A DNA stretch of 37,916 nt. Source: a virus. Shown piece after piece: positions 8,870-37,916 of this stretch; position 1 is the stretch's first letter; each line of letters opens with the position of its first letter. The DNA lies in IMG/VR virus record IMGVR_UViG_3300012349_000011, positions 1-37,916 of that record. One strand, given 5' to 3'. The notes beneath the pieces are model-generated. The model did not search any database, had not been told where the DNA came from, and saw nothing but the letters and a program-made list of their open reading frames with translations. The translations under genes were made by a program, and so were the position numbers.

Positions 8870-8937
8870 GTAATAGCTTACATCGCCATTTGCTTACCTC
8901 CAAAATCCGTCTAATAGAGAACTGAGGTAGACCTTAA

Positions 8938-9891: not shown

Positions 9892-9910
9892 GTTAGGTTT
9901 GGTGGTCTCT

Positions 9911-11034: not shown

Positions 11035-11192
11035 TGCCATTGAAAAAGGGCTCATCGAATAAGGTCGTTAGCGAAAACGTTAAAGAGCTAATGGCTACGG
11101 GTCGTCCTCAGAAGCAGGCGGTTGCTATTGCAATGCGTACTGCTGGCAAGCCAAAGAAAAAGCGACCGCCAACCAAGAGAGGCCGTAAGTAA
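11034..11192 (+). CDS. Small basic DUF6496-like protein
   Basis: 52 residues, overlapping its neighbours by one base at each end (TAATG twice). The sequence begins [19 protein letters not shown] and continues with [18 protein letters not shown] and a Lys/Arg tail. This KKGSS...SxNxxxL...GxPxKQAVAIA pattern is characteristic of the widespread phage DUF6496 family, whose role is unknown. Confidence 0.85.
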
Positions 11193-12193: not shown

Positions 12194-12207
12194 GAGAGGA
12201 TTCTTAA

Positions 12208-14778: not shown

Positions 14779-15149
14779 TGATTATTGAGTCTGTCGCGTT
14801 TAGTTGGAGTAATACACTCGGCATAGGAATTCCTATTCTTGCTAGTTGGTTTACGGCCGTTGTGGCATTTATTTATACAAAGATCAGCAGTGGAATGAAG
14901 GAACAGAACAAGGCATTAGAAGTGCAGACTCGTGCTTTGGATGCGTTGTTAGGCGAACATCATACAGTTATGGAATTCATGTCAATCGGCAAAAAGCAGA
15001 TGACAGACCTTCAAATCTCCACTGCGGTACTCGATTCTAGACTTACTGAACATGAAAGATGGTCACGACAAGAAGTAGAACGACAGCTAAGAGAAAGACA
15101 AGAGTTAGAGAGACAAATTAGAGAGAGGAAGACGGCCGATGCCTCGTAA
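14778..15149 (+). CDS. Membrane protein with cytoplasmic-type coiled coil
   Basis: 123 residues. One strong hydrophobic segment (LGIGIPILASWFTAVVAFIYT, about 14-34) is followed by a long charged helix ending in near-repeats RQLRERQELERQIRERK, a classic coiled coil. It starts inside the upstream stop codon (TAATG), and its 3' end overlaps the next tiny gene. The location between tail and lysis genes suggests a lysis-associated or virion membrane protein, but no family is recognised. Confidence 0.7.
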   Translation: MIIESVAFSWSNTLGIGIPILASWFTAVVAFIYTKISSGMKEQNKALEVQTRALDALLGEHHTVMEFMSIGKKQMTDLQISTAVLDSRLTEHERWSRQEVERQLRERQELERQIRERKTADAS

Positions 15150-15243
15150 TGGATTAGTATATTGGTTGGTTGTTATTGTCCTTGTTATGGTGGCCATTAT
15201 CCTTTTCGCTCACTTCTTTGCATTCCACCTAGCGGTGAAATAA
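15139..15243 (+). CDS. 34-residue single-span membrane peptide
   Basis: ATG 15139 overlaps the end of the previous gene by 11 bases, and its stop overlaps the next start (TAATG). The product is MPRNGLVYW followed by an almost uninterrupted hydrophobic stretch (residues 6-29) and a short basic tail. Both junctions fit the coupling style of this operon, which supports it being real. A holin-like or lysis-modulating role is possible but unproven. Confidence 0.6.
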   Translation: MPRNGLVYWLVVIVLVMVAIILFAHFFAFHLAVK

Positions 15244-15494
15244 TGTCAAAGGTCTACACTCCTCCAACCTGGCGACAGATTGAAAAGCTGGGCGAGGATT
15301 CTTGGGCACTGCGTTATGGATTTCCTGTCTACACAATCACTTTCAAGGATAGCCAGGGTGTTTGGCACAATCAAAATACCGTAGGGGTAGGAGAGGCTGA
15401 CGGTGCGACATCATTCTTCAATTGTCCTGCAACTATAAGCGATGCTCTCGCCACCGAAATGCAGGCAGCAAGTATGCCTGGCACGTATGTCTAA
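15243..15494 (+). CDS. Small protein sharing a C-terminal module with the Arg/Pro-rich protein
   Basis: 83 residues from ATG 15243 (TAATG coupled), preferred over a longer in-frame start inside the previous gene. After an N-terminal helix comes a beta module with the pattern (I/V)T(F/Y)K...GxWxN...GV...F..P.T...A.A.E. The same pattern occurs at the C-terminus of the protein at 16040-16669. This suggests a shared fold used in virion or lysis-region accessory proteins. Function is unknown. Confidence 0.7.
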   Translation: MSKVYTPPTWRQIEKLGEDSWALRYGFPVYTITFKDSQGVWHNQNTVGVGEADGATSFFNCPATISDALATEMQAASMPGTYV

Positions 15495-15509
15495 AAGAAA
15501 GGGGCTGTC

Positions 15510-16028
15510 ATGGCTCGTTATGGAACAAGAGTGGTTTCTCAAACTGCTCAACTGGCTGGTGCTCCATCTGGCTTGACAGTCAATGGTTACATTGGATATT
15601 GGGGAGCATCCGCTACCGCAGGATTTAGGCTTCGCCGTGTCAAGGTTGGCGTACGTACCACTACAGCCTCGGTGCCTATTTCCCAGCAGTTGGAAGTAGC
15701 TGTCTTTCGACAGACTGTCGCTCCGGCTGGCACTGGTCTAGTTGCTGCACAGCTTGGGGAGGCTTTTGAGATTTGGACACCGGCTGATCCTACTGTTGGT
15801 GCTATCGTTACAAATGCCACTGCTATTGGTACTACTGGTCCAACAATCAACGCTAATCCACTAGCAGCAGTTACTGCGAATACCCAGGGATATGAGGATG
15901 TTCCTTGGGAATTCATGGAAGAGATTGTGTGTAACAAGGGTACAGCTAATGGAATTGCGTTTGTAAATATCGGTCAAACTTTGCCTGCGGCTCATTTCAT
16001 TGTACTTGATATTGAGGTAGAGGTTTAA
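15510..16028 (+). CDS. Beta-rich virion-region protein, unknown
   Basis: 172 residues with a good ribosome site (AAAGAAAGGGG upstream). The sequence alternates hydrophobic and polar residues (GFRLRRVKVGVRTTTASVPIS, then LEVAVFRQTVAP), indicating beta strands, and ends HFIVLDIEVEV. It has no Cys-rich or catalytic motif; a single Cys sits near 150. Its place among tail genes suggests a structural or decoration protein. I do not recognise the family. Confidence 0.7.
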   Translation: MARYGTRVVSQTAQLAGAPSGLTVNGYIGYWGASATAGFRLRRVKVGVRTTTASVPISQQLEVAVFRQTVAPAGTGLVAAQLGEAFEIWTPADPTVGAIVTNATAIGTTGPTINANPLAAVTANTQGYEDVPWEFMEEIVCNKGTANGIAFVNIGQTLPAAHFIVLDIEVEV

Positions 16029-16039
16029 GGAACTAGCTC

Positions 16040-16669
16040 ATGGCTGCCCCACCGTTCGCCAAGCAAACACGACGGCGTGGGTTTCCATTCAAGCGTCGTC
16101 GTTACCGACAGTTTATACCTCCATCAACACCTAGGTATATTCCACGATCAAAGAGACCTACAACTAAGCCGCCATTCTACCGGCGTCGTACCTCAACTAA
16201 ACCTCTAATCACTGTTGTAGTTCCACAAATAGTTATTATACCAAGCTCACAACATACTAGACCGCGTTTTCCATTCAAGCGTAAGGCATTTAGTTCGCTA
16301 GCTCCTACCATTGTTTTAATTCCTTCACCATTTTACCTTCAACAACGATCCTTACGGCGGAGAGTACAACTCAGCAAGCGAGGCTTCAGATCGTTCGTTC
16401 CGCAGTTCGTTCCACCGTCTCCAAGATTCTTCTACACGCCCCCATTGTTCTCGTATGATTCACAATTCATTAATTCATTGCATTATCATGTACCAACAGC
16501 GACAGTAACATACAAATTATATGGGAAGTGGTACAACACAGGTTACCTCGGTGTGGACAGACCACAGGATATCGAGTACATCTTCACCAGTCCTGGGACA
16601 TTTGAGGTAAGTGCTGCGATTGCAGCTGAATTAATAGCATTCGGAATAGGAGTAGTGACAGTAGTCTAA
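16040..16669 (+). CDS. Arg/Pro-rich repetitive protein with C-terminal beta module
   Basis: 209 residues. Residues 1-135 are extremely basic and built from imperfect repeats: RGFPFKRRRYRQFIPPS, RPRFPFKRKAFSSLAP and LSKRGFRSFVPQFVPPS, each followed by a short hydrophobic/Pro run such as VVVPQIVIIPSS. Residues 150-209 form the module shared with the protein at 15243. Similar Arg/Pro-rich proteins occur near tail genes of actinophages. Nucleic-acid or wall-polymer binding is possible but unproven. It is coupled to the endolysin (TAATG). Confidence 0.7.
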   Translation: MAAPPFAKQTRRRGFPFKRRRYRQFIPPSTPRYIPRSKRPTTKPPFYRRRTSTKPLITVVVPQIVIIPSSQHTRPRFPFKRKAFSSLAPTIVLIPSPFYLQQRSLRRRVQLSKRGFRSFVPQFVPPSPRFFYTPPLFSYDSQFINSLHYHVPTATVTYKLYGKWYNTGYLGVDRPQDIEYIFTSPGTFEVSAAIAAELIAFGIGVVTVV

Positions 16670-17631
16670 TGGTGGTACTTGCTAAAGCACTTGACTATTC
16701 ACAAGCTAGGCCAGATTTGGCTCAAGTCAAAGCCGCAGGCTATGAGAGCGTTTATCGTTATGTGTGTTCTGATACTGCTGAGAATGGAATGCCAGGAAAG
16801 CGTCTAACCCCTAAAGAGCGGGACGCTATTTTGCATGCTGGTCTTGACATCGGCATCCACGGTGAGGACGAGTCTGGTGCGGTGCTTAAGGGTTACAATC
16901 GTGGACTCGCACAAGGTGCGCAATGGACAAGTTATGCTCGTAATGTTCTAGGAGCACCACAGGGAATGACTATCGTAGCTGCGGTAGATACAGATACAGG
17001 AGGATATACCTCAACCGTTGACCAGTATTTGCGTGGTGTCCAGGACGGTCTCGGTGGTTACTATAAGCTGGGAGTGTATGGATCATATAATGTGATTGTT
17101 GGTGCTCATAACGTAGGTCTAGGTAACAGCTGTTATGTTATGACTAATGCTTGGGGGTCAGACTTTCCCCCTACCATTGCTCATATGCACCAATATGGTG
17201 GAGATAATAGGTTCCAAGGTGTTGATTACAATGATGTGCTACGCATTCCGCATGGCACTTGGTTGCAAGTTTTAGGAGGAGACAATAGTATGTCCGCAGA
17301 AGATGTTCAGGCACTTAAGACTTACATTGATGCTAAGTTTACTGCTCTTATGAAGGGTGATACTGATGCCAATGGTAACAGTCTGCCAGCAAATACCAAT
17401 ACTCATCCAGTGAATCTATCGTTCGCTGACAGGCGTCAGAGGGATATTCTTGCTGCGGTTATGGCACTTCCTGATCCAGTTGTTCCTCCAACTCCTGCTA
17501 CCCCTGAAGAGATTGCGGCTGTAGTGGTGCCAGCTGTGCTGGCAGCTTTGCCCGCCTCGGTCGCCGGAGGCATTACAAAGACTGAGGTAGCGGCAGCTAT
17601 TGCTGCGGCCTCGGCAGTTCTGGGTGCGTAA
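16669..17631 (+). CDS. Endolysin, DUF1906 (Rv2525c-like) glycoside-hydrolase-like domain
   Basis: 320 residues. Residues 5-205 match the DUF1906 layout of a TIM-barrel, lysozyme-like family common in actinobacteria and their phages: LDYSQARPDLAQVKAAGY, RYVCSD, then GIHGEDES, AAVDTDTGGY, GVYGSYNVI and a terminal Q-Y-G-G...VDYNDVL. Asp and Glu residues on these strands are the likely active site. The C-terminal 113 residues hold helical segments, a Pro-rich linker (DPVVPPTPATPEE) and an Ala/Val-rich tail, probably wall-targeting or oligomerising. An AGGAGGA in front of in-frame ATG 17290 may yield a separate C-terminal product. The holin follows. Confidence 0.85.
   Translation: MVVLAKALDYSQARPDLAQVKAAGYESVYRYVCSDTAENGMPGKRLTPKERDAILHAGLDIGIHGEDESGAVLKGYNRGLAQGAQWTSYARNVLGAPQGMTIVAAVDTDTGGYTSTVDQYLRGVQDGLGGYYKLGVYGSYNVIVGAHNVGLGNSCYVMTNAWGSDFPPTIAHMHQYGGDNRFQGVDYNDVLRIPHGTWLQVLGGDNSMSAEDVQALKTYIDAKFTALMKGDTDANGNSLPANTNTHPVNLSFADRRQRDILAAVMALPDPVVPPTPATPEEIAAVVVPAVLAALPASVAGGITKTEVAAAIAAASAVLGA
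17274..17292 (+). promoter_or_regulatory. Internal ribosome-binding site within the endolysin gene
   Basis: AGGAGGA at 17274-17280 is followed after nine bases by ATG 17290, in frame with the endolysin (residue 208). It is a perfect match to the anti-Shine-Dalgarno consensus and one of the strongest such sites in the virion and lysis blocks. It sits exactly at the end of the catalytic domain. Translation from it would give a 113-residue C-terminal protein ending at 17631. Confidence 0.6.
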
Positions 17632-17633
17632 CC

Positions 17634-17822
17634 ATGTCTACCGACCTGAAGCATTACCGCAAGTTCGCGGTCACCGCACTCAATATCATCGCAGTGGTCA
17701 TAGAGCTAGGCCTGACGCACGGCGCACTCTTAAATGCTCTCGTTGCGGTCTCTGCTATTGCAACCGCTGCGGGAGTTGTCACTGTCAAGAACGAACCCTT
17801 ACCCCCAAAACCGCTTAAGTAA
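17634..17822 (+). CDS. Holin
   Basis: 62 residues starting two bases after the endolysin stop. A short basic N-terminus (STDLKHYRK) precedes two hydrophobic segments (FAVTALNIIAVVIELGL and ALLNALVAVSAIATAAGVVTV, about 11-27 and 32-52) joined by a short polar turn (THG). A Lys/Pro C-terminus (PLPPKPLK) follows. Size, topology and the place after the endolysin are those of small two-span actinophage holins. It would assemble in the inner membrane to release the endolysin. Confidence 0.85.
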   Translation: MSTDLKHYRKFAVTALNIIAVVIELGLTHGALLNALVAVSAIATAAGVVTVKNEPLPPKPLK

Positions 17823-17824
17823 GC

Positions 17825-17868
17825 CAAAGAGAGCACAGAGCCCGGTCTACGGACCGGGCTTCTCTTTG
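17825..17868. terminator. Terminator after the virion/lysis operon
   Basis: A perfect 9-bp stem AGCCCGGTC / GACCGGGCT (17839-17847 with 17852-17860, loop TACG). An outer 8-bp stem CAAAGAGA / TCTCTTTG (17825-17832 with 17861-17868) is separated from it by a six-base bulge. The outer arm supplies T-rich runs on both strands, so the element can work in either direction. Confidence 0.8.
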
Positions 17869-18011
17869 TATCAAATCAAAAACCGTCCCGTACACAGGGA
17901 ACCTCCGTGGTTCCCCGTACCCTTCCTGGATCGCTTCAGATGGCCCCTCAAGGGCCATCTTGCTGTTCGTATGCTCTTCACTCGCATACTCACAGACGCT
18001 CTAAGTGCGTA
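17825..18011 (-). ncRNA. Candidate leftward small RNA
   Basis: A transcript from the leftward promoter would start near 18011, pass three strong hairpins and stop at the bidirectional terminator (17825-17868), giving about 185 nucleotides. A T-rich run (TTTTTGATTT on the minus strand near 17882-17873) after the middle hairpins could end it earlier. This is predicted from promoter, hairpin and terminator arrangement only. Confidence 0.35.
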
Positions 18012-18016
18012 CTTCC

Positions 18017-18044
18017 ATTTTAACTCACCTTGATCTTTTGTCAA
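18017..18044 (-). promoter_or_regulatory. Leftward sigma70-like promoter candidate
   Basis: On the minus strand, TTGACA (18044-18039, perfect -35) is followed after 16 bases by TAAAAT (18022-18017, five of six to -10). It is one of the best promoter matches I found by eye in the window. It points into the hairpin-rich gene-free region and away from the replication genes. Confidence 0.5.
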
Positions 18045-18121
18045 GTCTTTGTGAGCAGTTTCACTGTCTAATTTTCTCGACGGCGACAAAAGAGCACGGC
18101 TGCACAAATCGGTCAGAAGTG

Positions 18122-18146
18122 GATAACCAACACTGTGACGGTTATC
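18122..18146. promoter_or_regulatory. Operator-like inverted repeat
   Basis: GATAACC (18122-18128) and GGTTATC (18140-18146) form a perfect 7-bp inverted repeat with an 11-base spacer. It lies 14 bases upstream of the -35 box of the rightward promoter, a typical place for a dimeric regulator to bind. Confidence 0.4.
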
Positions 18147-18159
18147 ACGGCAACTTTAC

Positions 18160-18188
18160 TTGCGACGAACCGGGCAGCGGCGTAAAGT
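18160..18188 (+). promoter_or_regulatory. Rightward promoter candidate for the replication operon
   Basis: TTGCGA (18160-18165), a 17-base spacer and TAAAGT (18183-18188). Transcription would begin near 18195, at the foot of a hairpin ACCTGAG-TTG-CTCAGGT (18196-18212). That hairpin could stabilise the mRNA 5' end. The first gene follows with an AGGGG ribosome site. Confidence 0.5.
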
Positions 18189-18237
18189 GGATGTTACCTG
18201 AGTTGCTCAGGTACTCCAACTGAATAGGGGTGAGACA

Positions 18238-19110
18238 GTGCCCGACTTCCTAAGCCATAGTCAGCTTCAGACCCTTAAGGACTGTGGAGAGAAGTACCGT
18301 TTGAAGTACATAGAGCGTGCACAACCGCAACCTAGTGCTGCTGCTATCGGTGGAACAGCTATCCATGCTGCTACTGATGCTATTGATCGTATGATTCTAA
18401 TAGGTCACAACGACTATGAGGAGTTAGCCCGAGCGGGTGCTTGGGAAGCTAATAATTCTATTGGTGATTCGTTGCAAGAGGTACAGGAGAAGTCTCCTGA
18501 TTATGTAGATCCTGCTACTTGGCATACGTATGGTCGTTGGACCAGGCAATGGCCACATGGGCAAGACCTGGCCTGGTTTCAGAAGGTTGCAATTCCTGCT
18601 GGGATTAACAACTACATCCGTTGGCGTTCTACTACTGTGGATCTTGTACCCTGGGATGCCCCTGACTTCGGCCCAGCTATCGAATTACCGTTCGAGACTA
18701 CGATCTTCGATCGTCCTGTTCATGGCAAGATTGACCGCATCTTCCAGTCCACAAGCAATGGCGCTCTTGTTCTATTGGATATCAAGAATGGCCCTAAGCC
18801 TAAGAACAGTGCTCAGCTAGGAACATATGCCAACGCTATGCGAACGGCATATCCTGATCTGACCTTCCGTTGGGGTACATTCCTGACTGGTTTGAAGTAT
18901 GATCCAAACAACCCCAAGCTAAAGACTAAGGCTGCCAAGCTCACGCTACCTATTGACTTAGACTACTGGACAGAGGATCGTCTAGCTCGTGCGAACGTCC
19001 ATGCAATCTTTGCAATCGAGAACGGAATATTCATCCCTAACCCTGGGGAGCAGTGCCAGCACTGCACCTTTACGAAGTCCTGTGACTTCTACCAAGCAGC
19101 GCTAGTATAG
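18238..19110 (+). CDS. RecB/Cas4-like PD-(D/E)XK nuclease with Fe-S cysteines
   Basis: 290 residues, GTG start, with AGGGG seven bases upstream. It opens with the FLSHSQLQTLKDC motif of RecB-family nucleases. The active site is visible as His43 (GGTAIHA), Glu149, Asp166 (GKIDRIF), Asp181-Lys183 (LLDIKNG) and Gln193/Tyr197. Cys16 plus Cys273, Cys276 and Cys282 (QCQHCTFTKSC) reproduce the one-plus-three cysteine pattern that holds a 4Fe-4S cluster in Cas4/AddB-type exonucleases. It probably trims DNA ends for recombination-dependent replication. First gene of the replication operon. Confidence 0.85.
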   Translation: MPDFLSHSQLQTLKDCGEKYRLKYIERAQPQPSAAAIGGTAIHAATDAIDRMILIGHNDYEELARAGAWEANNSIGDSLQEVQEKSPDYVDPATWHTYGRWTRQWPHGQDLAWFQKVAIPAGINNYIRWRSTTVDLVPWDAPDFGPAIELPFETTIFDRPVHGKIDRIFQSTSNGALVLLDIKNGPKPKNSAQLGTYANAMRTAYPDLTFRWGTFLTGLKYDPNNPKLKTKAAKLTLPIDLDYWTEDRLARANVHAIFAIENGIFIPNPGEQCQHCTFTKSCDFYQAALV

Positions 19111-19118
19111 GAGAGATA

Positions 19119-19550
19119 ATGGCTGAACAGGAAATGGCCTACAGTGTTACTAAGAGTTTTCATACTATTCGTGGTACTGATCCAGATAATTTCAGGACCA
19201 ATGTAGAAGCGATGCTAGGAGAAGATACGTTCGATGCTATCAAGGCGTCATTCCAAGTCGCATTCGAGATCCCAGACAGCATGGCTGAAGCTGAAAGTAA
19301 CGCCAAGGAAGGACTCCCAGGTACGGAAAGGTCTGACTATAAGAAAGCAGAACAACCAAAGTCCAAGTTCCAAAAGGGTGAAGAACCGCCTCCTACCGTA
19401 GAATATCCTGGTGATTGCCAGCATGGTCCTCGTGCTTACTTTAGCAAGAACCCTAGGGATGGTAGTCCTTGGCCTCGTTGGGAATGTGCACTTCCGTTCA
19501 CCCGAGAGAACAAGGCAGAACGTTGTCCTAACGTAAAGGTAGAGCGATGA
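19119..19550 (+). CDS. Putative Zn-binding, ssDNA-binding-like protein
   Basis: 143 residues with GGAGAG before the ATG. The N-terminal 70 residues resemble a small helical/beta domain. Residues 70-95 are a Lys/Pro-rich linker. The C-terminus CQHGPRAYF...PRWECALPF...AERCPNVKVE has three Cys and one His in a pattern I recall from actinophage proteins next to Cas4-like nucleases. It may be a recombination mediator or single-strand-binding protein. It overlaps the next gene (ATGA). Confidence 0.65.
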   Translation: MAEQEMAYSVTKSFHTIRGTDPDNFRTNVEAMLGEDTFDAIKASFQVAFEIPDSMAEAESNAKEGLPGTERSDYKKAEQPKSKFQKGEEPPPTVEYPGDCQHGPRAYFSKNPRDGSPWPRWECALPFTRENKAERCPNVKVER

Positions 19551-19732
19551 CCAGTAGATATGTTTGTCCCGAGTGTTATGCTTCGACAGATCCTCCTAAG
19601 CGTAACCAAGATGCACGGTGTCAAGCTTGCCGTGATGCATTGCCAGTAAACGGTAAGCCACAGGAGGATGAAGATGATCCTGTCCGGAACGAGGGAGATA
19701 GCAGCTTCGGCCCCAGCTATTCCATTACATAA
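19547..19732 (+). CDS. Small four-cysteine zinc-finger protein
   Basis: 61 residues starting inside the previous stop codon (ATGA). It has two CxxC pairs, YVCPECYA (Cys7, Cys10) and ARCQACRD (Cys25, Cys28), a compact zinc ribbon, then an acidic disordered tail. Its last 59 bases overlap the following ATPase gene in another frame, which is dense even for this genome. Confidence 0.65.
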   Translation: MTSRYVCPECYASTDPPKRNQDARCQACRDALPVNGKPQEDEDDPVRNEGDSSFGPSYSIT

Positions 19733-20450
19733 CACAGTCCTATCTCAATATGGAGTCAAGTTCCGTCGTGGTCAGTTTTCGATCGTTGCCGCAGCGCCAG
19801 GAGTCGGAAAGTCCGTCTTTGCTACCAACATTGTTCTTCATGCAGAAGCTGAATCAATGTATTGTAGCATTGACTCCGATGAATGGACTGTCATGCATCG
19901 TCTGCTTGGTGCTATTACCGGTGAGGATCTTGACGAGATCGACCGCAAGTTTAATGCAAGCCAGGTATGGGACGACTACTACAGTAAGAAACTGGTTGAA
20001 TATGGCAGCCATATCGATTGGTCTTTCAACCCAGCTGCCGACACAGATTACATTGTTAAACGTATCGAAGCCCACGATGCAGTATGGGGACAGTTACCAG
20101 AAATGATCGTAGTAGACAACATCATGGACATGACGACTGGCTCACATGAAGAGTTCGCAGAGCTACGTACCATCTGTCGATCTCTGCGTACGGTAGCTCG
20201 TGAGACAGACGCTCATATCATGGCATTGCACCATGTCAATGGTGAGAAAGAGAATGGTAATGTCCCGATCAACCTCAAGGATCTACAAGGGAAGTTAGGC
20301 AAGGCATCCGAGGTAGTCCTAGGGCTTAGTTTCTATGGTCAGGACAAGCTCTTGGTGACGGTTCCCAAGAACCGTGGTGGTAAGCGTGGATTGTATATCC
20401 ACTTACCAATCAATTACAGCACTGGTCAGATCGGAGGATTTAATGTCTAG
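19674..20450 (+). CDS. DnaB/RecA-like ATPase (replicative helicase-like)
   Basis: 258 residues from ATG 19674. An earlier ATG at 19668 directly abuts the AGGAGG (19662-19667), while 19674 has a workable six-base spacing. Walker A is AAPGVGKS (about residues 40-47), Walker B is MIVVDN (Asp148) and HIMALHHVNG is the sensor-like segment. The single RecA-type domain lacks the N-terminal DnaB primase-binding domain. It may be a short DnaB-like helicase or a RadA/KaiC-like recombination ATPase. Its position between nuclease and primase genes favours the helicase. Confidence 0.8.
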   Translation: MILSGTREIAASAPAIPLHNTVLSQYGVKFRRGQFSIVAAAPGVGKSVFATNIVLHAEAESMYCSIDSDEWTVMHRLLGAITGEDLDEIDRKFNASQVWDDYYSKKLVEYGSHIDWSFNPAADTDYIVKRIEAHDAVWGQLPEMIVVDNIMDMTTGSHEEFAELRTICRSLRTVARETDAHIMALHHVNGEKENGNVPINLKDLQGKLGKASEVVLGLSFYGQDKLLVTVPKNRGGKRGLYIHLPINYSTGQIGGFNV

Positions 20451-20628
20451 AGCACCTGTAATTGAGAGAGTGATTACCGTTCTGGCAGACTGGTTCAACG
20501 AGTGTGGTGAAGATGCACTCACTTGGGGCGAGGAGGAAATGTATCAAGATGCCGCAGGATTACTACTTGACATTCTCTATTTTTGGCGTACCGGAGAACT
20601 GCCCGATGAATACAAGGAACACCCATGA
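20443..20628 (+). CDS. Small acidic protein, unknown
   Basis: 61 residues from ATG 20443, preceded by GGAGG with five-base spacing and overlapping the ATPase end by eight bases. It is a helical acidic protein (WFNECGEDALTWGEEEMYQDAA). I do not recognise it. It is coupled to the next gene by ATGA. Confidence 0.65.
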   Translation: MSRAPVIERVITVLADWFNECGEDALTWGEEEMYQDAAGLLLDILYFWRTGELPDEYKEHP

Positions 20629-20780
20629 ACAAGACCGACCGAATCGGCGTGATCGCAGGCGGATGGGAATGGTCGCTAGTCGTCAACTCGGGCGCGTACC
20701 GCTTCACAAGAAAAGCCCTTCTAACTACACAGATTTCCTACCTCGTCGGTCGGCGTTTGACCGATACATACGAAAGGTGA
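20625..20780 (+). CDS. 51-residue protein, unknown
   Basis: ATG 20625 overlaps the upstream TGA (ATGA), and the gene ends immediately before the next ATG. The product begins MNKTDRIGVIAGGWEWSL and continues with a basic segment (RFTRKALL) and VGRRLTDTYER. The perfect junctions on both sides favour a real gene over a longer overlapping frame at 20504-20797. Confidence 0.6.
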   Translation: MNKTDRIGVIAGGWEWSLVVNSGAYRFTRKALLTTQISYLVGRRLTDTYER

Positions 20781-21011
20781 ATGAGCATCGTGCCTAGTTA
20801 CAAGACTATTGTTGCTCCAACTTCAGATAAGTTGAATCGTTTCTTTGAACTTCAGGACCTAGAAGAGTTCATTGATGAATGTTATGCAGCTGGTGCTGAT
20901 GCACGTTTCCGTGCTTCGATCAAGGGGAACCAATTGGAAATGGTCATGGAGGTTGATGCCAATGGTGAAGTTCGGCAACCTAAAGTACATGAACAGTATT
21001 TGGAATTCTGA
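20781..21011 (+). CDS. Small protein, unknown
   Basis: 76 residues directly after the previous stop. It is a mixed alpha/beta acidic protein (DLEEFIDECYAAGADARFRAS, then LEMVMEVDANGEV). It is coupled to the next gene (TGATG). No family is recognised. Confidence 0.65.
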   Translation: MSIVPSYKTIVAPTSDKLNRFFELQDLEEFIDECYAAGADARFRASIKGNQLEMVMEVDANGEVRQPKVHEQYLEF

Positions 21012-21355
21012 TGCCAACTCACCGCGTATCTAGAGGACGCAAGACTCAAGAACTCGTAGCTGAATACTTCCGTAAGAGAGGTTGGCCCGATGCACGGTCT
21101 AGTCCTGCTAGCATTCCTGGTAGGGATATTCTGCATATGCCTGGATTAGCACCAGAAATCAAGGCATCTAATGATAAGAACTTCTCAATGACCGGATCGT
21201 TGAAACAGGCTCGGGCTAATGCTGGTGACGATTTACCGTTCGTAATCTATCGTCCAAGAGGTTATGGTCCTGAGAAGATTGAGGATTGGGTTGTATTGAT
21301 AGACCTAGGTTGGTTCGTTAGCTTGCTGCACGACGGAGGATACAGCGATGAGTAA
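21011..21355 (+). CDS. Holliday-junction-resolvase-like PD-(D/E)XK nuclease
   Basis: 114 residues. The start SRGRKTQELVAEYFRKRGWPDA is the typical helix of Hjr/VRR-type endonucleases. It is followed by GRDILHMPGLAPEIKAS, giving the Asp ... Glu-x-Lys catalytic triad (about residues 39, 50, 52). The C-terminus contains RPRGYGPEKIEDWVVLIDL, the late strand of that fold. It probably resolves recombination or replication intermediates. It overlaps the MazG-like gene by eight bases. Confidence 0.7.
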   Translation: MPTHRVSRGRKTQELVAEYFRKRGWPDARSSPASIPGRDILHMPGLAPEIKASNDKNFSMTGSLKQARANAGDDLPFVIYRPRGYGPEKIEDWVVLIDLGWFVSLLHDGGYSDE

Positions 21356-21701
21356 CGATAGAATTTACCAGGAAATCTTGGAAGAGCGTTACCGTCAGAT
21401 TGAGAAGTGGGGTGAGCAACATCATCGACACAGTGAAGGCGTGGACTCGGTAAGCGAGTATGAGTTTTGGTCAGATATGGCAGAGAGGTACCGAAATCTG
21501 AATGATGTTAAGCATACTGACAGCTGGGATGATATACTTATGGAAGAGATCGCAGAGGCGTTTTCCGAACCTGATCTTGCTAAGCGTCGAGCGGAGTTGA
21601 TCCAATGCGCAGCGGTGATCTTCGCAGAAATCGAAGATATAGACATGCCGGGCCAACCTTTCCTATCAGAGACATTCTCGCAGAACTTGCCCCCAACGTA
21701 G
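21348..21701 (+). CDS. MazG-like nucleotide pyrophosphohydrolase-like protein
   Basis: 117 residues with a strong GGAGG upstream. The pattern EERYRQIEKWGEQHH (about 11-25), WDDILMEEIAEAF (60-72) and RRAELIQCAAVIFAEIEDID (80-99) reproduces the all-alpha NTP-PPase/MazG-like arrangement, with EExxE and E..D metal ligands. Such proteins may hydrolyse non-canonical nucleotides or modulate host signalling. The next gene starts 97 bases before its end in another frame. Confidence 0.7.
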   Translation: MSNDRIYQEILEERYRQIEKWGEQHHRHSEGVDSVSEYEFWSDMAERYRNLNDVKHTDSWDDILMEEIAEAFSEPDLAKRRAELIQCAAVIFAEIEDIDMPGQPFLSETFSQNLPPT

Positions 21702-21979
21702 AAGTACCTCAAAATGGTGGCGGTTGGATTAAGATGCATTGTCCGTTTCATGATGATACCCATACCAGCGCAGCCATCAATCATGAGGCTAATGTGTTCT
21801 ATTGCTTCACCTGTGGAATATCAGCGGGAGCTATTGGGTTGTTGATGCAACAGGAAGGACTTGATATAGGCGATGCTGTCACCAGAGCGGAAGCAATCAC
21901 TGGCACTAAAGGCCAACAGATACGCGAGCAACCTAGACGAAAGAGTTCTCTCCTATCTCGACTCACGTGGAATAACTAA
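21605..21979 (+). CDS. Primase zinc-finger protein (CHC2-type), N-terminal half of a split primase
   Basis: 124 residues. The ATG at 21605 has GGAG about seven bases upstream and lies inside the MazG-like gene. Cys46, His49, Cys67 and Cys70 (MHCPFHDDTHTSAAINHE ... FYCFTCG) form the CHC2 zinc finger that lets DnaG-type primases recognise template. The sequence continues with DAVTRAEAITG and a basic tail, then stops. The RNA-polymerase half is in the next gene, +1 frame, overlapping by 107 bases. The first 18 residues may be read from an atypical start. Confidence 0.8.
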   Translation: MRSGDLRRNRRYRHAGPTFPIRDILAELAPNVEVPQNGGGWIKMHCPFHDDTHTSAAINHEANVFYCFTCGISAGAIGLLMQQEGLDIGDAVTRAEAITGTKGQQIREQPRRKSSLLSRLTWNN

Positions 21980-22496
21980 GCAAGTAGCCAATATGTTTAA
22001 CCTAGGAACAGTACCGCAAGGTGATGACTATGCCGGACGACTTAGTATTCCTTATATGGTGCCTCACGAGGGATGTGTCGATATCAAGTACCGAACCTTG
22101 GGGGATGAGGGTAGCTCTAAGTACCTCAAAGAGCCGGGAGTTGGTTTGCATTTATTCAATGCGCAAGTGCTTAAGAACACGTCGCTCGCTATTCTCACTG
22201 AGGGTGAGTTGGATGCTATTTGTGTGCAAGCTTACTGCGGAATCCCTGCGGTTGCTTATCCGGGAACTGAAAGCTGGATGAGTGAGAAGAATGACTTCTG
22301 GCCTCTGTGCTTCGAGGGGGTTAGAAAGGTTATCGTCATAGCTGACGGTGACACACCGGGCCGCGTTGCAGCCCAAAAGGTAGCCGATACTATCGGTTGG
22401 TCAGCCCGAGTCGTTGACTTGGGAGACGGTATCGACGCTAATGAATACATTGCTTCACATGGTGAAGCAGCCTTTCGAGAAAGGATCATGAAGTAA
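21873..22496 (+). CDS. Primase TOPRIM protein, C-terminal half of a split primase
   Basis: 207 residues. Near the N-terminus is the RVLSYLDSRGITKQVANMF helix pair of DnaG-type primases. GRLSIPYMVPHEGCVDIKYRTL is the RNA-polymerase-domain entry. The TOPRIM fold follows, with Glu in LTEGELDAICV and the DxD in VIVIADGDTPGR. It carries no zinc finger; that lies in the overlapping upstream gene. The ATG at 21873 has only a weak AAGGA far upstream, so coupling or frameshifting may produce it. It overlaps the next ATG by one base. Confidence 0.8.
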   Translation: MLSPERKQSLALKANRYASNLDERVLSYLDSRGITKQVANMFNLGTVPQGDDYAGRLSIPYMVPHEGCVDIKYRTLGDEGSSKYLKEPGVGLHLFNAQVLKNTSLAILTEGELDAICVQAYCGIPAVAYPGTESWMSEKNDFWPLCFEGVRKVIVIADGDTPGRVAAQKVADTIGWSARVVDLGDGIDANEYIASHGEAAFRERIMK

Positions 22497-23295: not shown

Positions 23296-24044
23296 ATGGC
23301 CCGCGCACCTTAATACTGGACATCGAAACCAGTCCCAATCTAGGTTACGTGTGGTCCCTATTCAATCAAAATATACATATGAATCAGCTGGTCGAGGCTT
23401 CACATGTCATGTGTTTTGCAGCCAAATGGCACGGTGACCATCCTATACAGTTCTATTCGGGTTTTCACCATGGACATGACAAGATGTTAGACAAAGCTTA
23501 TGCTTTAGTTGATGAAGCTGATATTGTAGTCCATTACAATGGACAGAAGTTTGATATGCGTCATCTAAACAGAGAATGGTGGCTTGCAGGTAAGAGTCCT
23601 CCGTCTCCTATTCAACAGGTAGACTTACTGAAAGTAGTTCGTAAAGTGTTCTACCTTCCAAGCAATAAGCTTGACTACGTAGCCTCACTAGAGGGTGAAG
23701 GGAAGTTAGACCATGGTGGATTTGAGTTATGGGTCAAGTGTCTACTCGGAGACGCAAAAGCTTGGTCGCTTATGCGTAGATACTGTAAGCAGGATGTACT
23801 TATCACCGAGCATAGGTATGATTCTATACGACCTTGGATTCCTAACCACCCACATATGGGACTGTTCTACGATGACAGCAAAGGGATACCTAGATGTTCT
23901 AATTGCGGTAGCGAGAACTTACAGAAACGGGGATTTGTTTATACAGGCTTGGGAAGGTATCAAAGGTATCGGTGCATGAATTGTGGCCATTGGTCACGTG
24001 GAGGTAAAGCAGAAGATCGAGTAGACGTGAGAGGAGCGAGCTAG
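23292..24044 (+). CDS. DEDD-type 3'-5' exonuclease with C-terminal zinc ribbon
   Basis: 250 residues. Exo I is LILDIETSPN (Asp10, Glu12), Exo II is HYNGQKFDMRHLN with its Asp near 88, and Exo III is YCKQDVLITEHRY with the Tyr/Asp pair near 164-168. Together they place it in the DnaQ-like/YprB-type RNase H-fold exonucleases. The C-terminus has a zinc ribbon: RCSNCGS (about 201-204) and RCMNCGH (about 227-230). With no polymerase in the window it may proofread in trans, process RNA primers or act in recombination. It overlaps the next GTG by one base. Confidence 0.8.
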   Translation: MNGPRTLILDIETSPNLGYVWSLFNQNIHMNQLVEASHVMCFAAKWHGDHPIQFYSGFHHGHDKMLDKAYALVDEADIVVHYNGQKFDMRHLNREWWLAGKSPPSPIQQVDLLKVVRKVFYLPSNKLDYVASLEGEGKLDHGGFELWVKCLLGDAKAWSLMRRYCKQDVLITEHRYDSIRPWIPNHPHMGLFYDDSKGIPRCSNCGSENLQKRGFVYTGLGRYQRYRCMNCGHWSRGGKAEDRVDVRGAS

Positions 24045-24658
24045 TGAGAGAGCTAACGTATGATCAAGCTATAGATACCATTCTCCCGCAAGCCGCTCGT
24101 GCAGCGGCACGTAAGTATCAACAATATGGGTTGACATTTGAGGATGCACAGCAAGAGATTTGGATTTGGCTTTATCGCACCGGTAGAGACGGACTAACTG
24201 GTGGAGAGCGAGTACGTAGGTGGCTTGAGCAATCTCCACAAAGACTGCTCAGCATTCGTAAGGCAATGGAACGCTACGCTAGTAATGAAGGGAAGGTGCT
24301 TAAGGCTGATGCGGTCGGGTACAAGGTCCACGACAACATTAGATACTCTGTGCCGATGGTTAAAGAGCTGCTATCGCTCGCTCTGGATGGGACCTTTGAT
24401 GGATCTCGGCCTCCTGATGGGGAATTCCATGGTACCTCTTGGTCAGAAGAGTTGGTCGCAATGGTCTCTGATATCCGGAGGGCTATTGAGCACTGCAAGA
24501 CGATGGATGCAAGAACCCTTGTGGACTTCCTAAACACAGAGGATTATGTAGGTCAACGACATGCCATATCCAATGTAACTGCACAAGCATTTACGGGAGA
24601 CACGGCAGAGAATGAGTTGGTAATGGGTGCTAAGTTGCACCAAAAGGAAGAACTATGA
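24044..24658 (+). CDS. Sigma-factor-region-2-like DNA-binding protein (tentative)
   Basis: 204 residues, GTG start overlapping the previous stop. Residues 15-50 (ARAAARKYQQYGLTFEDAQQEIW followed by IWLYRTG) closely follow the helix pattern of sigma70 region 2.1-2.2, where an aromatic/acidic helix contacts RNA polymerase. No clear region 4 is visible; the rest is helical with mixed charge. It could be a transcription modulator, or merely share the helix pattern. Confidence 0.5.
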   Translation: MRELTYDQAIDTILPQAARAAARKYQQYGLTFEDAQQEIWIWLYRTGRDGLTGGERVRRWLEQSPQRLLSIRKAMERYASNEGKVLKADAVGYKVHDNIRYSVPMVKELLSLALDGTFDGSRPPDGEFHGTSWSEELVAMVSDIRRAIEHCKTMDARTLVDFLNTEDYVGQRHAISNVTAQAFTGDTAENELVMGAKLHQKEEL

Positions 24659-33938: not shown

Positions 33939-34324
33939 TACCGCCTCGACTCGTATCTTGCTGCTCTTGCAGCATCCTGAACGGCAAAGTCGTGCAACTT
34001 TGCCGTGATTTGTTCGTATGTCTCTCCTGCTTCATTGGTATATGGTTGCCCACCCCGTTCGTTGGAGTGGTTGGGAATGTCCACGATGCCCTGGGTTGTG
34101 ACTTCATGGACTAGCTCGTCTGCGTAGATTTGCAGAAGTTTCTCGCAGACCTCTTCGAGGTCATTACGGACTTCTTCGACCTTTTCCACCAAAGAAAGCT
34201 CACCCCGTGCATCCATTAGAGGAATGAGCATGTTCATGTCGTTCACAACAGTGGAACTGTTGTGTAGCAATGCTTGAACCATCGTGCAAGCATGCTGACC
34301 GGGGTGAATTTCCATAATGCACAT
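33938..34324 (-). CDS. Helical acidic protein, unknown
   Basis: 128 residues directly after the previous tiny gene. All-helical with an acidic coiled-coil-like middle (SLVEKVEEVRNDLEEVCEKL) and a C-terminal helix (QITAKLHDFAVQDAARAARY). Not recognised. Confidence 0.6.
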   Translation of the reverse strand: MCIMEIHPGQHACTMVQALLHNSSTVVNDMNMLIPLMDARGELSLVEKVEEVRNDLEEVCEKLLQIYADELVHEVTTQGIVDIPNHSNERGGQPYTNEAGETYEQITAKLHDFAVQDAARAARYESRR

Positions 34325-34414
34325 TTACTTTCCTCTCTTCGATTGCCAGTAGCTGATAATGATGCTTGTTGTGATAAGAATTGGGAAGTAGGCAATTGTG
34401 GCAGCAGATAGCAT
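34325..34414 (-). CDS. 29-residue membrane peptide
   Basis: ATG 34414 after AGGTAGGTGAA. The stop is followed at once by the next ATG. MLSAATIAYFPILITTSIII then SYWQSKRGK: a hydrophobic span followed by a basic tail, giving a clear inside-positive orientation. Confidence 0.6.
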   Translation of the reverse strand: MLSAATIAYFPILITTSIIISYWQSKRGK

Positions 34415-34438
34415 TAATTCACCTACCTAAGTAGAACA

Positions 34439-34488
34439 CCGCTGTGTCTAGATGTCTAGTGACTAGTCCAGTGAGCGTGACACAGCGG
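34439..34488 (-). other. Long-stem inverted repeat in a leftward intergenic gap
   Basis: CCGCTGTGTC (34439-34448) and GACACAGCGG (34479-34488) are perfect 10-bp complements. The 30-base interior contains the palindrome GACTAGTC. Further short stems (GAGGG/CCCTC, GTCCC/GGGAC) follow to 34540. It may act as a terminator after the Pup-like gene or protect the downstream mRNA 5' end. Confidence 0.45.
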
Positions 34489-34538
34489 GAGGGTTGTCAT
34501 CCCTCAGTAAATGTCTCTTTGTCCCCTGGGGACTGGTC

Positions 34539-34805
34539 TTATAAATCTTCTACATTCCCACAGGTGGCACAGACGTGGTAGTAACCACGACAACCACCGC
34601 CCATGGTCTTGCCGTAGGCGTGGATGTGTTGTTCTTGTGTTTCAATTGCCGCGTTCTCTGCCAAAGCTTCGTCAACGTCGGCGAGGATGGCATTTACATC
34701 TTCTTGTGTCTGTACGGGAATGACTCGGGTCTGTCGATCGTCCATTGCATCCGCTTCGGACCGGTTGTCCCGTACTCGTTGCTTCTGTACTTGCTTTTGA
34801 GTCAT
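34539..34805 (-). CDS. Pup-like core-helix protein with C-terminal zinc motif
   Basis: 88 residues. The N-terminal 30 residues are polar and charged (KQVQKQRVRDNRSEADAMDD), like disordered Pup N-termini. Residues 40-52, ILADVDEALAENA, align with the Mpa/ARC-binding core LLDEIDDVLEENA of mycobacterial Pup as I recall it, with six identities in 13 and mostly conservative changes. Where Pup ends in a Gly-Gly-Gln/Glu tail, this protein reads HAYGKTMGGGC and then has His/Cys residues (HIH, CATCG) resembling a zinc site. It may mimic or block host pupylation. This could also be a chance helix. Confidence 0.6.
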   Translation of the reverse strand: MTQKQVQKQRVRDNRSEADAMDDRQTRVIPVQTQEDVNAILADVDEALAENAAIETQEQHIHAYGKTMGGGCRGYYHVCATCGNVEDL

Positions 34806-34818
34806 AACTTTCCTTTCA

Positions 34819-34876
34819 GACAGAGAGACGGCTACCCCAAAGGCGGGAGGTAGTGAAGAGCAGCCGTCCCCCTGTC
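34819..34876 (-). other. Two-part hairpin upstream of the Pup-like gene
   Basis: GACAG (34819-34823) pairs with CTGTC (34872-34876), and inside it GACGGCT (34827-34833) pairs with AGCCGTC (34862-34868). It lies in the gap between the acidic protein gene and the Pup-like gene. It could be an attenuator or RNA-processing structure. Confidence 0.4.
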
Positions 34877-34896
34877 AGCTTGTAAACGCGGTGAAC

Positions 34897-35445
34897 TTAG
34901 AGTCCGGGACCGCGCTTGTTGGCGAGCATGTCGTCCTCGATCTCGCTGATCGGCTGGCCGGTGAGAGCTGCGACAACCTGTGCGTCATTCTCTTCGGCTT
35001 CGGTCAGTCCTTCACGTACAGGACCGTCGAGACCGAAGCCCTCATCGGCTTCACCATCAGCACCTAGGAGAGCGCCGAGGAAATTGCCGCTCATGGTCGC
35101 ACCGGAACCGAGCATCGTCTCGAACAGCTGCTCTTCCTGTTGGTTCTGGTAATCGATCCATGCCAGATGTGCTGGCCCGTTGCTGATGTTGTTGACGATC
35201 TCGTTGTGGACTTCGGCGAGGTCGTAGTTGGTGACGTTGGCGACGTACTGCTCGAATGCCGCTTCGTCAGCCACCGCAACATTGGTGACTGGATTGATTT
35301 CCGCTCCCTCGGGCGGGGCGTAGGTGGTCCAGTCGATTTCTCGTTTGGTTCCCGAGACCTTCTTTGTAGTTCCCACTGGTATTCCTTTCTTTGTATCTGC
35401 GGCTGGCTTACCGCAGAAACTTGGACTACGGATATGTCCTGTCAT
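34897..35445 (-). CDS. Acidic protein, unknown
   Basis: 182 residues from ATG 35445, overlapping the secreted-protein gene by 20 bases. Lys-rich N-terminal 45 residues (VGTTKKVSGTKREIDW), then a long acidic region (NYDLAEVHNEIVNNIS...) with Gly/Met-rich GSGATMSGNFLGALLG and an acidic C-terminus. No motif is recognised. The codons are somewhat more GC-rich than in the tiny genes further left. Confidence 0.6.
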   Translation of the reverse strand: MTGHIRSPSFCGKPAADTKKGIPVGTTKKVSGTKREIDWTTYAPPEGAEINPVTNVAVADEAAFEQYVANVTNYDLAEVHNEIVNNISNGPAHLAWIDYQNQQEEQLFETMLGSGATMSGNFLGALLGADGEADEGFGLDGPVREGLTEAEENDAQVVAALTGQPISEIEDDMLANKRGPGL

Positions 35446-35953
35446 TCGTCCAAGTGCAGCAGACCGTGAAATGGTCCAAATACAGGTAGCCGTTGGCGTC
35501 ATTGCCAAGCTTCATTCGCTCCCCGGTAATATAGACCGAGGAATGGTTGGTTCCTGACGCCCACACTGCATGACCGCTGCCGTCGTAAAGCACGAAGTTT
35601 AGGTCAGGTTGCCAGTTGATATGAGCGGCTGTACCGGCATTCGGTGTGTGCCACCTTGCCGTGCCCCACGATGTGCCGACACACGACGTAGTGAAACTGT
35701 ACCGCCGATAGAGAGCAAGTGTGCCAGACGGCCAGAATTCGAGCTTCTCTTCGGCGCAGGAATTCGTGCCATAGACGTAACTGACACGAGTGAAGTTGGC
35801 CGATGCGTACTGAACAGTGACACCGCTACCGGTCTTGTCCCACTGATGAACCCATGTATAAGCGGTTGTCGCAGAAGCTTGCGGCATATTGACAGCAGTC
35901 ATTAGACCCACTGCCATCAACAAGGTGGCGATTAGTATTCCGATTCTTTTCAT
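35426..35953 (-). CDS. Secreted bulb-type-lectin-like protein
   Basis: 175 residues with GGAG before the ATG. A Sec signal peptide is clear: MKRIGIL, hydrophobic ATLLMAVGLMTAV, then a cleavage site after PQASA (about residue 28). The mature part contains three beta-prism-like repeats: LEFWPSGTLALY (71-82), INWQPDLNFVLY (112-123, followed by DGSGHAVWASGT) and MKLGNDANGYLYL (147-159). This resembles the QxDxNxVxY repeats of bulb-type lectins. Four to five Cys could form disulfides. It is likely exported by the infected cell. Confidence 0.7.
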   Translation of the reverse strand: MKRIGILIATLLMAVGLMTAVNMPQASATTAYTWVHQWDKTGSGVTVQYASANFTRVSYVYGTNSCAEEKLEFWPSGTLALYRRYSFTTSCVGTSWGTARWHTPNAGTAAHINWQPDLNFVLYDGSGHAVWASGTNHSSVYITGERMKLGNDANGYLYLDHFTVCCTWTNDRTYP

Positions 35954-35969
35954 GCTGCTCCGATTCTTG

Positions 35970-36182
35970 TCAGCTGCGGCTGGGCTGTTCGTTCAGCCAC
36001 TCGGCCATGTGAACGGCGTGCTCGTACTGAGCACAGGTTGCGATCACCTTGTTGGTGATCTCGTCGTATACCTCCCATCCAAATGCTGGCATTCCCAGGG
36101 TCATCGCCCTGAGCCGAGTGCTGTCCGTGGTCTCACGGACAGCGAATGTGTGGATCTGGATTTCGGTGACCTGATCTGACAT
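35970..36182 (-). CDS. Small protein, unknown
   Basis: 70 residues with GGAAGGAAAAG upstream. Beta-alpha pattern (EIQIHTFAVRETTDS ... GWEVYDEITNKVIATCAQYE) ending in an amphipathic helix (HAVHMAEWLNEQ). Not recognised. Confidence 0.55.
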   Translation of the reverse strand: MSDQVTEIQIHTFAVRETTDSTRLRAMTLGMPAFGWEVYDEITNKVIATCAQYEHAVHMAEWLNEQPSRS

Positions 36183-36196
36183 TTGACTTTTCCTTC

Positions 36197-36421
36197 CTAC
36201 TCAGCCAAATCACGCTCTGTGACTGGCGTTGGGATCGTGTAGCCATATTCATCCAAGTTACACTCGGCATAGAAACCCTGAATGTTGAAATCAGGATTCT
36301 CTGTCTTGAATTCACGGGCTACATGACGTGCAACAACCGCGATGTAGAAGCGGCCATTTTCATCTCGGTCGTGGATTTCTTGGCGTACGCGCGAAGCAAC
36401 GCGCTTGATGAATTCAGGCAT
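36197..36421 (-). CDS. Small protein, unknown
   Basis: 74 residues. N-terminal basic helix (FIKRVASRVRQEIHDRDENG) then beta-like segments and an acidic end. Overlaps the next gene by eight bases. Not recognised. Confidence 0.55.
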   Translation of the reverse strand: MPEFIKRVASRVRQEIHDRDENGRFYIAVVARHVAREFKTENPDFNIQGFYAECNLDEYGYTIPTPVTERDLAE

Positions 36422-36692
36422 GGGCTTGTCGATCTTTCATGACTTTGAGGATATCTTCGACACTAACCCGCACTTCGAAAGTGTTGGTTATGCGAAAGCC
36501 GGTAAACGCAATGCGTACTTCGGCCTCTGTGAAACACGGGTCCGTGGGAGCGTGTTCAATACGGTTTTCTAGGTCCTGTACTTTGTTCCGCCACTCAGGA
36601 CCTTTGCCAAAACTCTCGGTTATTGCGTCCTTGAGAGCTTCAGCTAAACGCATGATGTCATCATCATGCAAGCGGACGTAATGGTCAGCCAT
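36414..36692 (-). CDS. Small helical protein, unknown
   Basis: 92 residues. Amphipathic helices (DDDIMRLAEALKDAITESFG; EWRNKVQDLENRIEH) followed by beta strands (VRIAFTGFRITNTFEVRVS). No family is recognised. Confidence 0.55.
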   Translation of the reverse strand: MADHYVRLHDDDIMRLAEALKDAITESFGKGPEWRNKVQDLENRIEHAPTDPCFTEAEVRIAFTGFRITNTFEVRVSVEDILKVMKDRQAHA

Positions 36693-36695
36693 CAG

Positions 36696-36893
36696 TTACA
36701 TGCCCATGGAGCCGTCGACGAAACGCCCCTCTTGAGCGTCGTTTCCTTGCTTACTGAGCGCTTTGGCCAGCATGGTGTTGTTCTTTTCGAGCCGCCGGTT
36801 CTGGGCGACGAGGGAGTCGATCTGGCGTAGTGCTCGTGTGTACGATGCAGATAGCTGTGCGACAAACTCGTTACTGAGGACGGTCTTTGCCAT
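36696..36893 (-). CDS. Small coiled-coil protein
   Basis: 65 residues. Residues 8-45 form a heptad-type helix (FVAQLSASYTRALRQIDSLV, then QNRRLEKNNTMLAKAL). Gly/Met-rich tail. Oligomerisation is likely; function is unknown. Confidence 0.6.
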   Translation of the reverse strand: MAKTVLSNEFVAQLSASYTRALRQIDSLVAQNRRLEKNNTMLAKALSKQGNDAQEGRFVDGSMGM

Positions 36894-36905
36894 GGTCGTA
36901 CCTTT

Positions 36906-37022
36906 CTAGGGGGGAGGGCTGAGCAGACAAATCATTCCTGTTATGAACATGATCCAGAACAGGAAACACCACGCCAGAAATCCTGGCGCAGATATGAGTC
37001 GCTTGAAAAGAATCTCACTCAT
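36906..37022 (-). CDS. 38-residue membrane peptide
   Basis: ATG 37022 forms an ATGA overlap with the upstream stop. MSEILFKRLISAPG then FLAWCFLFWIMFITGMICLL and a Pro tail: one long hydrophobic span of about 20 residues. The longer frame upstream lies over another gene and is rejected. Confidence 0.6.
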   Translation of the reverse strand: MSEILFKRLISAPGFLAWCFLFWIMFITGMICLLSPPP

Positions 37023-37192
37023 TTGTTCACTTCGACAAACGAGTAGCGACGAAGCTCTTGCATGTCTGGCTTGGACCGAATGAATTCGACTACTTGAACG
37101 CCAGACAGATTGCCAACGTGATCTCCTACTGGCTTGCGCATGTCCTCTTGGTACAGCACGTCGTAGCGCTTCCACGCCTTGATTTCGTTCAT
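37019..37192 (-). CDS. 57-residue protein, unknown
   Basis: ATG 37192 with GGGAG seven bases upstream. MNEIKAWKRYDVLYQEDMRK then VVEFIRSKPDMQELRRYSFV: a small helical protein coupled to the membrane peptide that follows. Not recognised. Confidence 0.6.
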   Translation of the reverse strand: MNEIKAWKRYDVLYQEDMRKPVGDHVGNLSGVQVVEFIRSKPDMQELRRYSFVEVNK

Positions 37193-37629
37193 GACATTCT
37201 CCCTGTCTTCGAAGCTTGGTAGCGTTTTATTAAGCCCAAGGTAGGTGACTAGCTACCTTGGGCACTTGCAACGCCTCTCTTCCAGCCGAACCCGGAATGG
37301 TCGGCTTAGTCACGGACGCTTGTCCCTTTCCACGGGGACGTTTGCATGACGGGTTCGGGATGCCGCCCGACTTAAAACCTACGGCGATAGGTACGCTGCC
37401 GTCCCAGCGTTGTTAAGAGCGTGAGAGTTGTGCACTGCCCTCATCACCGATTGAGTACCTGTTTCCACTCAACTACCCACCGGGCGGACTTACATGCGGC
37501 TGGCGCTCAGCGAAACTACCTGATGTGTGCCTCTCTGCCAGGACACTCTTAATCAAGCAATTGCGAACTGTCAGCACGATTGGCTCTCACACATTGGAGT
37601 TGGTTAAGCTCCAATGTCCGCTGTCCCCA
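37193..37629. other. 437-base gene-free structured segment
   Basis: No reading frame with a ribosome site. Perfect local hairpins: CCCAAGGTAG/CTACCTTGGG (37235-37244, 37253-37262) and ACATTGGAG/CTCCAATGT (37592-37600, 37610-37618). Others include ACGCTG/CAGCGT near 37397-37410 and GCCGA/TCGGC near 37286. Long-range pairs: CCGCCCG (37363-37369) with CGGGCGG (37481-37487), and TTAAGAG (37412-37418) with CTCTTAA (37545-37551). It lies upstream of the leftward accessory genes and probably holds their promoter and a long structured leader or non-coding RNA. Confidence 0.45.
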
Positions 37630-37908
37630 TCAGACAGCGGGCTCGTCTTTGGGTACGAGGAATAACTCCTCTCTTGACTCTAGGTCGTAAATGGAGGCTT
37701 GCCCGTTGTCACGGGCCAGTTTGATAGCCTCTTTGCATGACTCTGCAATGAGGAATACGTCAAAGACGTAATTGCCGTCTGTGTCGATGCCACCCTCAGC
37801 ATAAGCAGCGTTACGCTGCGCCTCGGCACGGTTATAGAGGATCTGACCTCTGATCCTGTCGGCCTCGGCAGTAGCTGGCAGGAAGCGCTGCATGTATGCT
37901 AAATGCAC
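37630..37908 (-). CDS. Small protein, unknown; start may lie beyond the window
   Basis: 92 residues from GTG 37908; the frame is open to the window edge. ATG 37893 is an alternative start. Helical (ATAEADRIRGQILYNRAEAQ), then beta-like (GNYVFDVFLIAESCKEA; SIYDLESREELFLV). Its stop lies within a hairpin CCGCTGTC/GACAGCGG that may end transcription. Not recognised. Confidence 0.5.
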   Translation of the reverse strand: MHLAYMQRFLPATAEADRIRGQILYNRAEAQRNAAYAEGGIDTDGNYVFDVFLIAESCKEAIKLARDNGQASIYDLESREELFLVPKDEPAV

Positions 37909-37916
37909 AACAAACC

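Follow-up and report, generated by a model that had tools for sequence, protein, structure and literature searches.

Why would a phage carry a gene for a secreted lectin? The question arises from a gene near the right end of a linear viral contig that has 37,916 bases and lacks end repeats; this whole stretch of DNA is called the window here. A first-pass annotation had placed at 35426-35953 a phage-encoded, secreted, bulb-lectin-like protein with a clear signal peptide. These coordinates are exact, and the strand, which the annotation did not state, is minus. The gene and its parts are as follows.

35426-35953, minus strand: gene encoding a secreted B-lectin-like protein with one domain, 175 aa (ORF, phmmer, B-lectin profile)
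35958-35961, minus strand: ribosome-binding site GGAG, 4 nt 5' of the lectin ATG (read from the sequence)
35870-35953, minus strand: Sec signal peptide, residues 1-28, predicted cleavage between ASA and TT (sequence and hydropathy)
35708-35869, minus strand: mature N-terminal region, residues 29-82, with about 40 aa that have no clear counterpart, followed by B-lectin subdomain 1 (alignments A3 and A4)
residues 74-82: subdomain 1 motif WPSGTLALY, degenerate, with the final Y alone kept (A4)
35585-35611, minus strand: subdomain 2 motif QPDLNFVLY, residues 115-123, with all five QxDxNxVxY positions invariant in A4
35480-35506, minus strand: subdomain 3 motif GNDANGYLY, residues 150-158, with D, N and Y kept

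The gene starts with ATG. As judged from sequence and hydropathy, its leader, MKRIGILIATLLMAVGLMTAVNMPQASA with the cut before TT, has a positively charged n-region, a hydrophobic core of 18 residues and an AxA-type site. This is a textbook leader of the Sec/signal-peptidase-I type with a predicted cut after residue 28, in agreement with the signal peptide claimed before, and leaves a mature protein of 147 aa. When the ORFs of the whole window were scanned crudely for a ribosome site combined with a Sec-like leader, only the lectin ORF and one antisense ORF overlapping it showed both. A lipobox is absent from the lectin (the cleavage site is ASA/TT and the first cysteine is residue 66), and the protein bears no lipid or wall anchor. 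Its four cysteines (66, 91, 164, and 165) have no clear counterpart among the aligned lectins.

The mature protein corresponds to one B-lectin domain, predicted to be of the beta-prism II type, and we are highly confident that the gene encodes a secreted B-lectin. Searching the PDB with phmmer matched gastrodianin at E=7.3e-11 and a further 10 lectin sequences below 0.001. A B-lectin profile made from 16 bacterial sequences, with the window protein left out, scored this protein at 45 bits overall and 43 in the best domain (residues 49-161), a match that covers the whole three-subdomain repeat. With the same profile, the best of 1000 shuffled sequences reached 7.2 overall and 6.4 for the best domain, and the runner-up among the 706 stop-to-stop frames of the window 4.7. 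At the sequence level, the B-lectin similarity is far above chance and the bulb-lectin assignment of the first-pass annotation holds. The Pfam model PF01453 gave no match to the lectin at its gathering score. This absence says little because the model misses ordinary bacterial relatives too: the clear Streptomyces B-lectin L040 stays below the cut-off as well, and the B-lectin part of a viral lysin (L136) goes unreported. The annotation had further described three QxDxNxVxY-like repeats. Three repeats are indeed present, and their motifs are one intact, one partial and one degenerate. In A4, the intact motif of subdomain 2 is followed by a WASGTN segment, so that the lectin is predicted to have a single intact sugar site.

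A single-sequence AlphaFold model of the lectin had a pLDDT of only 38. We rebuilt it on an alignment of 27 sequences, 26 of which were B-lectins from fetched loci, and obtained an AF2 model with a mean pLDDT of 62; its best parts are at ~85, and values are low for the first 23 and the last ~35 residues. Foldseek matches to the PDB were weak (best E 0.017) and were led by pyocin L1, a mushroom lectin, LlpA, and garlic lectin. VIA-align gave Z scores of 9.6-6.1 for pyocin L1 (the best, at 9.6), the bluebell, daffodil and snowdrop lectins, and an M. smegmatis lectin; the top 32 rows were B-lectin proteins throughout, and unrelated folds started at 5.3. The best matches in a viral structure library were giant-virus lectins, two of them named mannose-specific. 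This moderate-confidence model resembles bulb-type lectins best. Because its input alignment consisted of B-lectins, we treat it as supporting evidence only.

The description of the gene as phage-encoded is also borne out. The major capsid protein of the window is 37% identical to its counterparts in the Streptomyces Beephvirinae, and a large tail-region protein is about 30% identical to theirs. Matches to the Beephvirinae phage FlowerPower comprise the ORFs from 5895 to 22493 and a DNA-binding gene at 24008-24655, with 26-42% identity; the head and tail genes are collinear with this phage and the replication part is inverted. The virus is a distant relative of the Beephvirinae, and we do not claim membership of the subfamily itself. 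Judging by G001, a 16-kb contig with 79% identical DNA, terminase and portal sit just left of the window, which lacks this end of ~6.5 kb. The full genome is therefore probably near 45 kb, a Beephvirinae-like size.

The annotation had spoken of an infected cell or lysogen. In the subset of window ORFs whose proteins were searched, the terminase/portal end lying outside the window, we recognised no integrase or repressor. The nearest named relatives are reported to be virulent and to have no lysogeny genes; one member of the Beephvirinae, the podovirus Abafar, lacks such genes and has a predicted virulent lifestyle (PMC11536984). A lysogen is unlikely on this sequence evidence. The virus is apparently virulent, and our best guess is an actinobacterial host.

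Elsewhere in the window, a single tRNA-Met gene lies at 8107-8178 on the plus strand, 5' of the capsid gene; at this place FlowerPower has a tRNA array. The frame at 1-4956 on the plus strand encodes 1651 aa or more of a protein whose start is cut off and that has no PHROG match; the gene occupies the place of the 4.9-kb hypothetical gene 9 of FlowerPower, and a relative of the protein in L002 has 1783 aa. At 24044-24658 on the plus strand, a 204-aa protein is weakly similar to a sigma factor family (phrog_354), and the same frame also matches the FlowerPower DNA-binding gene 66.

The lectin gene is one of a series of small genes, most of them unknown, that run leftward at ~27.8-37.9 kb, at a distance from the genes for head, tail, and lysis. 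Its immediate neighbours are:

35970-36182, minus strand: upstream neighbour, unknown, 70 aa; runs in the same direction, its end separated from the lectin gene by 16 nt
34897-35376, minus strand: downstream neighbour, 159 aa, unknown; GTG start, AAAGGA ribosome site, same direction

Defence-system models matched neither the lectin nor nine other window proteins, four of which are its neighbours, and promoter patterns in the lectin region did not exceed chance. The different composition noted in the first-pass annotation is real: GC content is 0.51-0.55 over the last ~4 kb (34000-37916), ~0.47-0.48 just before, and 0.43-0.52 elsewhere. Recent acquisition and a misassembled contig end are the candidate explanations for this rise.

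Relatives of the lectin are distant. Searches with the protein as query through phage, plasmid, viral-contig and genome-contig collections turned up no close relative. Two partial relatives of the virus, G001 and G398, gave no match either; G001 does not reach this end of the genome. This lack of close relatives in the collections searched, together with the degenerate state of two of the three sugar-site motifs, fits a decaying or nearly neutral passenger gene that is losing its sugar sites. Such a passenger is improbable in our view, given that the frame is intact, the ribosome site good, the leader clean, and the second site with its WASGTN segment fully conserved.

In build, the window lectin comes closest to small lectins that Streptomyces secretes, which are up to 31% identical to it. 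L040, L052, and L059, from bacterial genomes, consist like it of a leader and one domain (152-154 aa) and are 28-31% identical to it in A4, but their three motifs are intact or near-intact. The gene may have been captured from an actinobacterial host and serve adhesion, aggregation or phage spread among cells or hyphae without contributing to exclusion; Streptomyces lectins of the same size and build (152-177 aa) and a block composition unlike the rest of the phage are consistent with this. On the other hand, identity to bacterial lectins is just 22-31%, and among 396 actinobacterial genomes weak matches occurred in only two, which argues against a recent capture from a sampled host. We consider this origin and use unlikely. 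The gastrodianin/monocot mannose-binding lectins (PF01453) share with the window lectin the predicted beta-prism II fold and the order of QxDxNxVxY and WASGTN. They differ from it in having up to three intact sites as against one, and the window lectin has ~40 N-terminal aa and four cysteines that are peculiar to it, and lies below Pfam detection.

The annotation had called a phage-made lectin of this type unusual. As far as phage B-lectins in general are concerned, this does not hold, since 394 candidate stretches in viral contigs encode such domains and pyocin-L-like proteins occur in Pseudomonas phages. Phages are already known to carry B-lectins in tail proteins, in lysins, as leaderless single domains and as LlpA/pyocin-L-like proteins. 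We dropped the idea that the lectin forms part of the virion, because a leader precedes it and its gene sits outside the structural module, whereas B-lectins inside phage tail-type proteins are leaderless and belong to proteins of ~500-1150 aa. Stand-alone single B-lectin domains from viral contigs, as in L096 and L145, differ from the window lectin in their size of 114-117 aa, the absence of a signal peptide, and their intact motifs. What remains is an unusual variant, a divergent, free-standing single domain with Sec export in an apparently virulent actinophage. We applied a simple but strict leader test to 76 viral loci that had been picked for resembling a Streptomyces lectin. One passed, a two-lectin protein of 311 aa that also has an Excalibur domain. 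Other phage lectins with a leader do exist, because certain Pseudomonas phage proteins have a leader-like start.

Lysins with a C-terminal B-lectin were seen in the viral contigs L136 (3275-4294), L117 (3542-4363), and L125 (3548-4378). The lysin types fused in this way are Rv2525c-type (L136), NlpC/P60-like, and phage lysozyme, which suggests that B-lectins can serve as cell-wall binding modules in lysins. The lysin of the window (16669-17631) has the Rv2525c glycoside-hydrolase domain only. The lectin could then be a lysis helper or wall-targeting subunit that binds the wall and assists this lysin, in place of the B-lectin that L136 fuses to the same lysin domain. Its gene, however, lies 18 kb from the lysin gene, on the opposite strand and in a different block, and we regard such a function as very improbable.

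Many viral B-lectin proteins have 270-295 aa, and two of them, L106 and the Pseudomonas phage protein P0001, proved LlpA/pyocin L-like on closer reading. The P. aeruginosa phage loci L083 (2536-3408, Pseudomonas phage Pacha_bin_1) and L082 (2563-3435) encode tandem-type 290-aa proteins with a leader-like start that are related to putidacin L1 and pyocin L1; in the records they are hypothetical or unannotated. Like the window lectin, the LlpA/pyocin L proteins, including these Pseudomonas phage copies, are stand-alone B-lectins that phages can carry, and the copies in L082 and L083 share its leader-like beginning. The window lectin might be a bacteriocin of the LlpA/pyocin-L type, encoded by a cargo gene and directed against bacteria that compete with the host. 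For the Pseudomonas phage proteins, the best solved relatives are putidacin L1 and pyocin L1; pyocin L1 is also the top VIA-align match of the window lectin model, and in P. fluorescens Pf-5 genes of the llpA type are located close to repressors of prophages (PMC2647930). In contrast to the tandem B-lectin architecture of known LlpA proteins (~270-290 aa, PMC6240691, PMC6465234), the window lectin is a single domain of 147 aa in an actinophage without recognised lysogeny genes. In addition, the best-known targets of these bacteriocins are Gram-negative surface structures while this phage looks actinobacterial, and protecting the host pays less for a probably virulent phage. A bacteriocin is therefore quite unlikely.

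In the four Beephvirinae examined (FlowerPower, Kumquat, Treat, and Stella), the right-end block is also leftward and holds small genes, with an ArdA-like antirestriction gene in Kumquat and Stella. In each of the four, this block encodes one small predicted exported lipoprotein with leader and lipobox. The lipoprotein genes lie at 41141-41530 in L087, 12874-13134 in L088, 12037-12462 in L089, and 12767-13192 in L090, and are annotated as hypothetical only. We consider their products candidate superinfection-exclusion proteins. Since no homologs of the lectin or of the proteins of its block were detected in the right-end blocks of the four phages, the likeness is one of position only. One exported accessory protein is a recurring feature of this block and a clue to function, by analogy only. 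The lipoprotein Llp of phage T5 blocks re-infection as well as adsorption to fragments of lysed cells and is expressed early (PMC9586334). The window lectin resembles Llp and the Beephvirinae lipoproteins as a predicted exported accessory phage protein, but has a predicted lectin fold and no lipobox.

As the likeliest of these readings, though possible rather than probable, we tentatively propose that the lectin gene is an accessory gene of an apparently virulent actinophage, whose exported product binds host envelope glycans and blocks re-adsorption. Receptor blocking, as already suggested in the first-pass annotation, is plausible. The infected cell would export the lectin, which would bind a mannose-like sugar in the host envelope itself (a wall glycopolymer or lipoglycan) through subdomain 2, perhaps also through subdomain 3. 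Coating of infected cells, their neighbours, and lysis debris would then spare further phages and the phage's own progeny unproductive adsorption. The working principle would be that of T5 Llp, yet with a soluble protein directed at a sugar rather than at a protein receptor. The more specific idea of a 'receptor mask', a soluble and sugar-directed protein secreted by a virulent phage, so that superinfection exclusion is brought about by a lectin and not by a membrane protein or lipoprotein, is rather doubtful.

In favour of masking are the combination of a leader with a single-domain lectin and the position in a leftward block of small genes away from the virion module. The use of B-lectins by other phages at the host envelope, in lysin fusions and tail proteins, points in the same direction by analogy. 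Against masking, just one of the three predicted sugar sites appears intact, and without an anchor the lectin could diffuse away.

If masking turned out to be false, the protein would still be a divergent, exported addition to the phage-carried B-lectins. If it is true, actinophages would have a soluble, glycan-directed form of superinfection exclusion, and the ligand of the lectin would point to the receptor of the phage.
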